This document shows positions 1 through 38,213 of a DNA stretch of 38,213 bases, one piece after another (within the stretch, counting starts at the first letter, position 1; each line of letters opens with the position of its first letter). The notes under the pieces were generated by a model. It was not told where the DNA came from, did no database searches, and worked only from the letters and a program-made list of their open reading frames with translations. A program made the translations under genes and the position numbers. The stretch comes from Treponema sp. (GTDB taxonomy: Bacteria > Spirochaetota > Spirochaetia > Treponematales > Breznakiellaceae), in NCBI GenBank assembly GCA_031273265.1, contig JAISSH010000028.1, forward strand, positions 1 through 38,213, given 5' to 3'.

Positions 1-1388
1 TTGTTTTCGGAAAAAGCGTCCCCGATTAATTGAAAGCCGACAGGTAAACCTGCCGCGTCAAATCCGCAGGGAAGCGCAACTGCCGGAAGTCCGGCGAGAT
101 TGATTGAGACGGTGTAGATGTCGCCCATGTACATCTTGATTGGGTCGCCGACATTTTCACCTAACTTGTACGCCGTGGTCGGCGCGACTGGCGAGAGTAT
201 CATGTCAAACTGTTTGAACAATTTATTGTAAGCGTCCTTGATAAGAGCGCGGACTTGCAGGGCTTTTTTGTAATAGGCGTCGTAGTAACCCGATGAGAGC
301 ACGAACGAGCCGAGCATTATTCTTCTTTTTATTTCCATCCCGAAACCTTCGCTTCGAGAGAGGCGGTAAACTTCGGAGAGCGTGTTCGCCTTCGCGCTTC
401 GATAACCGTACTTCAAGCCGTCATAGCGCGAAAGGTTAGACGAGGCTTCGGCGCAGGCGATGATGTAGTAGGTGGGGATCAGATAATCCATCAGCGGCAT
501 TTCAAATTCTTCAATCTTCGCGCCTGCCGCCTCAAGCTCTTTCGCCGCAGAAAGAACGGCGGTCTTTACATCGTCATCAATTCCGCTTCCAAAATAATTG
601 CGCGGTAAGCCGATCTTAAAAGGTTGACTTTCACTCTTTGCGCTGAAGTCAAACGGCTTTTCAATGACGCAGGTGCTGTCTCGCGTGTCCGGCCCTGAGA
701 TAATTTCCAGCATTGCGGCGCAGTCATTAATGTTCTGGCCGATTGGTCCGATCTGGTCAAGAGATGAGGCGTAGGCAATCAGCCCGTAACGCGACACTGC
801 GCCGTAAGTCGGCTTGATTCCTGTAACGCCGCAAAATGCGCAAGGCTGGCGGATACTGCCGCCCGTATCGGAACCGAGAGCCGCAGGAATCTCACGCGCC
901 GCAACTGCCGCCGCACTGCCGCCTGACGAACCGCCCGCAACACGCGCAATGTCCCACGGATTATGCACCGCGCCGGACACGCCCGTTTCGCTCGAGCCGC
1001 CCATCGCGTACTCGTCCATGTTGAGTTTCCCGATGAGGATCATTCCCGCTTGTTCCAGCTTCTCCACGACAGCGGCGTTGAAAACCGGCGTGTAGCTTTC
1101 GAGCATTTTTGACGCGCAGGTGGTCGCAATTCCCGTTGTGGAAATGTTATCTTTCAGCGCGATTGGCGCTCCGGCAAGCGGCGAAAGTTCCTCGCCCTTA
1201 TCAAGCCGCGACTGGATTTCTTTCGCGCGAGTAAGAGCGCTCTCCTTTGACAGTGCGAGAAATGCGTTAAGACGGCTGTCATTCTTTTCTATTGAATCAA
1301 TGTACGCGCTCACTACTTCGGGCACACTGAGTTTTTTCGCTTTTATCGCCGCCGCTAATTCCAACGCGCTTTGCTCAAACATTGACAT
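1..1388 (-). CDS. gatA: Aspartyl/glutamyl-tRNA amidotransferase subunit A, 3' part outside window
   Basis: Reverse-strand reading from ATG at 1388 ([22 protein letters not shown]...) stays open to the window edge. It contains the Ser-rich amidase signature ([39 protein letters not shown]) and lies directly downstream of gatC. Confidence 0.93.
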   Translation of the reverse strand, partial: [462 protein letters not shown]

Positions 1389-37489: not shown

Positions 37490-37574
<85 letters not shown>

Positions 37575-37837
37575 AAAACATCTCATATAAGGGTGTTTTT
37601 TCTATATTATCGCTTTTTGCGTTGCTAGGCAACATATCGAATTATCGTTGAATGTGTTAAAATCTTGTGTAAAATGTTGACAAAATCATAAAAAAGTGAT
37701 ATTTATTTAATGATCGGTGGTAAAATTGTAATTATCGGTCGTTTTTGCCTTTTTTATGGCAGAGATACGCACAAAGAAAAGGGGTATATTAAGACAATAT
37801 GTCATATTTTAAGACTGTAAACATCAATTGTATATTA

Positions 37838-37853
37838 CCCCCCCCCCCCCCCC
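37838..37853 (+). repeat. Poly-C homopolymer tract (16 C)
   Basis: tatatta-CCCCCCCCCCCCCCCC-aatgtaat, about 100 nt upstream of the ATG at 37954. Confidence 0.95.
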
Positions 37854-37953
37854 AATGTAATTGTGTCCGGCAGGCTGCAAAACAGCCAAAACTACAACTA
37901 TCAAATCAAAAAACGCATTTTTCTCATTTTTCCAAAAAACATAAGGAGTTTTT

Positions 37954-38213
37954 ATGAAAAGAACGATTCTCTTTGCCCTCATTGTGGGGACAGCCGCGCT
38001 CTGCTTCGCGCAGACCGCAACTTTGGACATCGCGCTTTCCGGCGCGAAAACCTACATCGAAACCCAGCTTCCGAAGGGCGCGAAGGTTTTGATCATCGAC
38101 CCTGCCGCTCCCGGCAAAGAGCTTGGCTCTTACGCCGCGCAGGAACTTTCCACCCGACTCGTGAACAGTAAGCGCGTTACGGTTGTGGAACGCGGCGCAG
38201 ATGTCATGCAGAG
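37954..38213 (+). CDS. Exported protein, partial at window edge
   Basis: RBS ataaggag then MKRTILFALIVGTAALCFAQTATLDIALSGAKTYIETQLPKGAKVLIIDPAAPGKELGSYAAQELSTRLVNSKRVTVVERGADVMQ. The open frame runs off the window; it resembles CsgG/LpoB-like fold proteins (weak). Confidence 0.75.
   Translation, partial: MKRTILFALIVGTAALCFAQTATLDIALSGAKTYIETQLPKGAKVLIIDPAAPGKELGSYAAQELSTRLVNSKRVTVVERGADVMQ

Follow-up and report, generated by a model that had tools for sequence, protein, structure and literature searches.

The C16 homopolymer that lies ahead of an exported-protein gene in this Treponema contig is, on balance, best read as a contingency tract in a phase-variable leader ORF, which would act on the gene by translational coupling or by anti-termination. 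For the C-tract family as a whole, a leader-ORF frame switch appears very likely. The window's own case is less sure because the window has no terminator and the leader ORF has a weak Shine-Dalgarno (SD) sequence. An earlier note on this DNA had taken the tract to be a phase-variation switch that works through the promoter. A phase-variation tract ahead of an exported gene is well supported, as such tracts occur genus-wide, are strongly oriented to signal-peptide genes, and vary in length where the flanks of paralogous sites are near-identical; phase variation of the tract-linked exported genes is probable. The promoter-spacer mechanism is not supported.

The window, i.e., the whole stretch of DNA analyzed here (38,213 bases), is an entire contig (C49) of a termite-gut Treponema MAG of 2.01 Mb, 136 contigs, and 87% completeness; its mnmA relatives are termite-gut Treponema MAGs as well, at most 84% identical. 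The sixteen uninterrupted C residues are present as the earlier note had reported, and they form the sole C- or G-run of at least 8 in the window, in which about 3e-6 C/G runs of at least 16 are expected by chance. No A/T run in the window is longer than 9. The host genome holds 11 C-runs of at least 9: three are short (9 to 10) and look intragenic, and eight are long (15 to 20) against an expectation of about 0.0006. Since a contig end is no more than 500 bases away from five of these eight long tracts, exact lengths taken from short reads are uncertain. The contig end lies 360 bases past the C16 tract and cuts the exported-protein gene at 86 codons. The closest orthologue of this gene, in genome G021, also carries a long C-run (C24), which argues against a one-off artifact in the window. 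The features of the locus are collected in Table 1.

Table 1. Features of the C16 locus in the window (positions are those of the window)
Feature	Position	Strand	Remarks
Divergent tRNA-Leu	37490-37574	-	Bounds the region on the side away from the exported gene
TTGACA, exact -35 consensus	37677-37682	+	Candidate; about 120 nt 5′ of the leader ATG; direct sequence
AGGGG, possible weak SD of the leader ORF	37780-37784	+	14 nt from ATG 37799, beyond optimal; direct sequence
Candidate leader ORF, 52 codons (MSYFKTVNINCILPPPPPQCNCVRQAAKQPKLQLSNQKTHFSHFSKKHKEFL*)	37799-37957	+	Traverses the tract; stop TGA (37955-37957) overlaps ATG 37954
TTAAGA-16-TATATT, rival promoter candidate	37809-37836	+	9/12 consensus match; start site would fall inside the tract
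C16 homopolymer tract	37838-37853	+	Five CCC (Pro) codons plus one base in the leader ORF frame; direct sequence
Small hairpin GGCTGCAAAACAGCC	37873-37887	+	Within the leader ORF; lacks a T-run, hence not an intrinsic terminator
AAGGAG, SD of the exported-protein gene	37943-37948	+	Within the leader ORF; direct sequence
Exported-protein gene, 5′ end	37954-38213	+	ATG 37954; signal peptide MKRTILFALIVGTAALCFAQ; cut by the contig end

The candidate leader ORF reads MSYFKTVNINCIL-PPPPP-QCNC...KEFL* from its ATG. As the divergent tRNA-Leu bounds the region, a plus-strand upstream gene does not explain this leader. C16 puts the leader ORF in the coupling frame (ATG+1), which we define as the frame whose stop TGA overlaps the gene ATG, and one base more or less breaks the ATGA overlap. 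Specifically, when tract lengths from C9 to C23 were simulated, lengths of 1 modulo 3 (e.g., C13, C16, and C19) retained this overlap, with the leader stop at +1 relative to the ATG; at lengths of 2 modulo 3, the leader stopped 96 nt ahead of the gene ATG, and at lengths of 0 modulo 3, it overran the ATG by 215 nt. The open frame at this locus is not significant by itself. No intrinsic terminator was found between the tract and the gene in the window, the global RNA structure of the window leader is not special (z -1.0), and the leader region matches no known RNA family except for the divergent tRNA-Leu. The TTGACA upstream of the leader has poor -10 partners (TATTTA at 37700-37705 with a 17-nt spacer, or GATATT at 37698-37703), and it is a candidate only, as the promoter scan did not list it. 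The AGGGG/GGGGTAT sequence 5′ of the leader recurs ahead of other tracts. GGGGTA/GGGTAT is over-represented there (GGGTAT 13 versus 2.2 expected; window copy at 37780-37786), and in a few loci its position suits that of an SD for a tract-entering ORF.

We propose that the C-run would lie within a short leader ORF at the 5′ end of the exported gene's mRNA, and that replication slippage would alter its length. As the ribosome would read the run as polyproline, every one-base change would shift the leader frame. In the ON state, the open leader would stop in the TGA that overlaps the gene ATG, so that ribosomes would traverse the whole leader and could re-start on the gene. In the OFF state, the second frame would end translation just past the tract, about 96 nt short of the gene, and in the third frame translation would overrun the gene start out of frame. 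In the subset of leaders in the genus that carry an intrinsic terminator, a ribosome translating the open frame would also prevent termination. We infer all three of leader translation, switching, and the direction of the effect.

The exported-protein gene begins where the earlier note had placed it, with its ATG behind a good SD and ahead of a signal peptide. Pfam gave no useful match for the 86-aa fragment. Two of its orthologues (354 and 345 aa) match Pfam LpoB (1.6e-6) and CsgG (4.6e-5), and they are predicted to be LpoB/CsgG-like outer-membrane-associated proteins. The orthologue in G021 shares 64% identity across the 86 residues; its C24 tract lies 74 nt ahead of its ATG, and its coupling frame is likewise open. 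The orthologues at L428, L430, and L432 have no tract. Absence from these more distant orthologues indicates that the tract is a lineage-specific addition that the gene does not need. A coding-frameshift contingency gene was considered for the window and does not fit, because an in-frame TAA 12 nt 5′ of the ATG leaves the tract outside the gene's own frame; furthermore, the orthologues begin at the same Met.

A survey of G/C tracts near surface genes, which the earlier note had called for, was run on the genus with pattern searches and 160 fetched regions, which contain many of the tracts (one genome per species). C-runs of at least 11 occur in 35 of the 40 genus genomes, with all 12 of the first-searched relatives and 22 of 27 further genomes carrying them, up to 34 per genome. 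Genes were called at tracts by one mechanical rule throughout (an SD and an ATG 20 to 300 nt from the tract, followed by a long ORF), and they lie on the C side in 56 cases and on the G side in 5 (binomial p about 6e-12). A hydrophobic N-terminus of the signal-peptide type is found in 47 of the 56 C-side genes. Thus, coding sequence lies on the C strand, and most of the genes encode exported proteins or lipoproteins. The tracts usually lie about 100 to 190 nt from the start codon, and lengths of 15 to 27 are common.

At three paralogous sites of G011 (L133, L134, and L138), the tracts are C15, C13, and C12 despite at least 90% identity over 120 nt upstream and 54 to 61 nt shared downstream, which fits slippage. 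These sites share a near-identical 5′ flank and the tract, but their downstream genes soon diverge, which looks as though the tract-bearing 5′ part were a mobile cassette or marked a recombination junction. Two other groups of loci share conserved blocks. At L400, L408, and L416, a well conserved block (AATTTTCTCTATTAA..TATAATATCTCTAA) stands 3′ of the tract, and two of the three precede the same lipoprotein gene (MKQKKSVSMV...). At L148, L152, L157, L158, L171, and L172, from two species (G005 and G009), a similar block TTGTCCGGCGCTGGGG...TTCATCTACA stands 5′ of the tracts; it has no Rfam match. Besides, MAG contigs often end at C-runs, with low-complexity C/A/T junk beyond (L100, L115, L117, L124, L129, L161, and the start of L179). 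This junk is a short-read artifact and will break or mis-start genes behind tracts. Since short-read assemblies so often end at tracts, the tract length and the ON/OFF phase of any single locus are not trustworthy.

The coupling frame was first noticed among the three frames that leave the tract and was then measured in two sets of loci, the second from other genomes fetched after the frame hypothesis had been formed. In 19 of the 37 loci of set 1, this frame has no stop until it comes within 20 nt of the ATG or passes it (shuffles: mean 6.3, sd 2.0); by the same criterion, it is open in 11 of 19 loci of set 2 (shuffle mean 3.5, sd 1.5). Together, this makes 30 of 56 loci, the rest including direct N-terminal fusions and loci that fit neither pattern. 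The other two frames show no consistent difference from shuffles. Stop density is 0.032 in the ATG+1 frame versus 0.057 and 0.051 in the other frames (p=3e-5), and tract-free leaders of the same lineage (n=92) show no deficit in that frame (0.056). The same 120 nt are open in 16/34 tract leaders versus 12/92 tract-free leaders (p=1.5e-4). Furthermore, at 11 of 32 loci an SD-started ORF enters the tract, a count that none of 200 shuffles equaled (mean 3.0); by plain length, the longest open frame 5′ of the tracts is only mildly above the null, and the SD-restricted test is the clearer one. The open ATG+1 frame and the SD-started ORFs therefore indicate that many tracts sit within a short ORF, which in one phase out of three extends as far as the gene. 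This evidence on the leader frame suggests that the tract acts within the transcript. The leader peptide sequence is not conserved; a YFS-like motif seen by eye in set 1 was not repeated in set 2 and was dropped.

Terminator-like hairpins, i.e., hairpins of -9 kcal/mol or better with a T-run between the tract and the gene, occur in 17 of 47 tract leaders versus 8 of 92 controls (p=1.3e-4). The ATG+1 frame passes completely through every one of the eight hairpins at -17 kcal/mol or better. At L109, L365, L368, and L389, only this frame reaches the hairpin, and the other two frames stop within 24 nt of the tract.

Previously, GCAGA repeats in a leader ORF of Streptococcus gallolyticus pil1 have been shown to decide whether ribosomes disrupt a terminator (PMC3894217). 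In pil1 and pil3, as proposed here, the repeat lies in a short leader ORF at the 5′ end of a surface-protein transcript, and gain or loss of a unit puts the leader in another frame and relocates its stop, in these loci relative to a terminator before the gene (PMC3894217). In contrast to pil1/pil3, the treponeme repeat is a C homopolymer encoding polyproline, the favored frame continues to a TGA overlapping the gene ATG, and the tracts stand at many loci per genome across the genus. Set against the pil1 anatomy, the window has a candidate leader ORF at ATG 37799, for which the possible ribosome-binding site AGGGG lies 14 nt away, and across the genus a leader ORF with its own start and SD is seen in 11/32 loci (3.0 expected); a unit change moves the window's leader stop among three states (+1, -96, and +215 relative to the ATG); an intrinsic terminator between repeat and gene is absent from the window and present in the 17/47 subset. 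The tract leaders in which the ATG+1 frame crosses the hairpin have the anatomy of the pil1 switch. Two other known systems are related in part. In the E. coli pyrL-pyrBI system, a leader ORF is also translated through a terminator to near the structural gene, but control is by nucleotide supply and not by tract length. In Neisseria opa-type contingency genes, slippage changes the frame at the 5′ end of the gene; such a frame change is seen directly in a second class of tracts (L118, L127, L128, L141, L154, and L165, from G011, G009, and G005), where the tract lies between the start codon and the signal peptide of the same gene, whereas the window tract lies outside the gene. This second class, with its polyproline N-terminal extension, is by its layout ordinary frameshift phase variation.

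In Treponema pallidum, tprE/G/J, tprL, and tp0126 have poly-G tracts within their promoters or immediately 5′ of the start site (PMC7864442). Both there and here, a G/C homopolymer of variable length precedes treponeme genes for outer-membrane proteins; the T. pallidum tracts have G on the coding strand and lengths of about 7 to 11, whereas those of termite treponemes have C on the coding strand, reach 15 to 27, and usually stand 100 to 190 nt before the ATG, within an ORF. A promoter-based alternative for the window, that TATATT (37831-37836) is a -10 element with the tract at the start site, had been offered in the earlier note. In this account, TTAAGA-16-TATATT would be the promoter; with transcription starting in the C-run, start-site choice, promoter escape, or reiterative initiation would vary with the length of the tract. 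The hexamer is where it was reported, the 9/12 match ends 1 nt ahead of the tract, and the T. pallidum tprL start site is the fourth base after its poly-G (PMC7864442). Three loci of two single-contig treponeme genomes from another family (L401, L412, and L417 in G014 and G017) share the layout TAGACA-16..18-hexamer-A-C(n), with the tract one base past a -10-like TATACT, TACACT, or TATAGT, which suggests that the tracts of those treponemes act at the start site. No such enrichment was seen within the genus, where -10-like sequences adjoin tracts in 6 of 32 loci, similar to other stretches scanned; moreover, this account leaves the open ATG+1 frame, the SD-started ORFs, and the terminators unexplained. 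Given the 9/12 match and the three loci of the same layout, it stays a live rival, which we consider unlikely for the window.

Somewhat less likely still, the C-run in the mRNA leader may be a binding site, either for a G-rich small RNA or for Rho on unstructured C-rich RNA, and its length would grade expression without leader translation. Untranslated C-rich leaders are suited to Rho, and the coding strand is the C strand in nearly all cases, as any RNA-level mechanism predicts; the open coupling frame and the SD-started ORFs would again be unexplained. Rho could also act together with the leader-ORF frame switch. That the tract is a neutral slippage hotspot or an assembly product of no regulatory role is improbable: contigs do often end at tracts with low-complexity junk (e.g., L100, L124, and L161), and most orthologues lack the tract, but the orientation and the biases in signal peptides and frame depart far from neutrality, and tracts are present in single-contig genomes of other genera too.

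T. pallidum tp0126 and Neisseria porA exemplify a promoter-spacer switch by a homopolymer tract. The earlier note had proposed such a switch, with TTGTAT (37828-37833) as -35, TGTAAT (37856-37861) as -10, and expression ON near C11; the hexamers and the 22-nt spacer are correct, and other treponemes are known to use this mechanism (PMC7864442), but it is very improbable here, as TTGTAT matches TTGACA at only 4/6 positions, G021 has GCGTAAT after its tract in place of TGTAAT, no -35/-10 enrichment is seen at 32 tract loci, and the tract lengths of 15 to 27 common in the genus are far from 17 nt.

In the open-access literature, we found no report that deals with phase variation or such tracts in the treponemes of termites, and the papers found document leader-peptide phase variation for two pilus loci of one streptococcus. 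There is perhaps an even chance that termite-gut treponemes share a genus-wide design, in which many surface and lipoprotein genes per genome would stand behind polyproline leader ORFs. C-tract length would then pick one of three outcomes, namely ATGA coupling with crossing of any terminator, an early stop, or an overrun of the start, and each cell would set many envelope genes independently. The leader-ORF frame switch predicts that expression tracks tract length modulo 3, and where poly-G/C tracts in treponeme leaders have been given a promoter-based reading, leader ORFs should be looked for. If true, this genus-wide homopolymer version would make leader-peptide phase variation a general strategy, and uncultured termite symbionts, not pathogens alone, would vary their surface stochastically.
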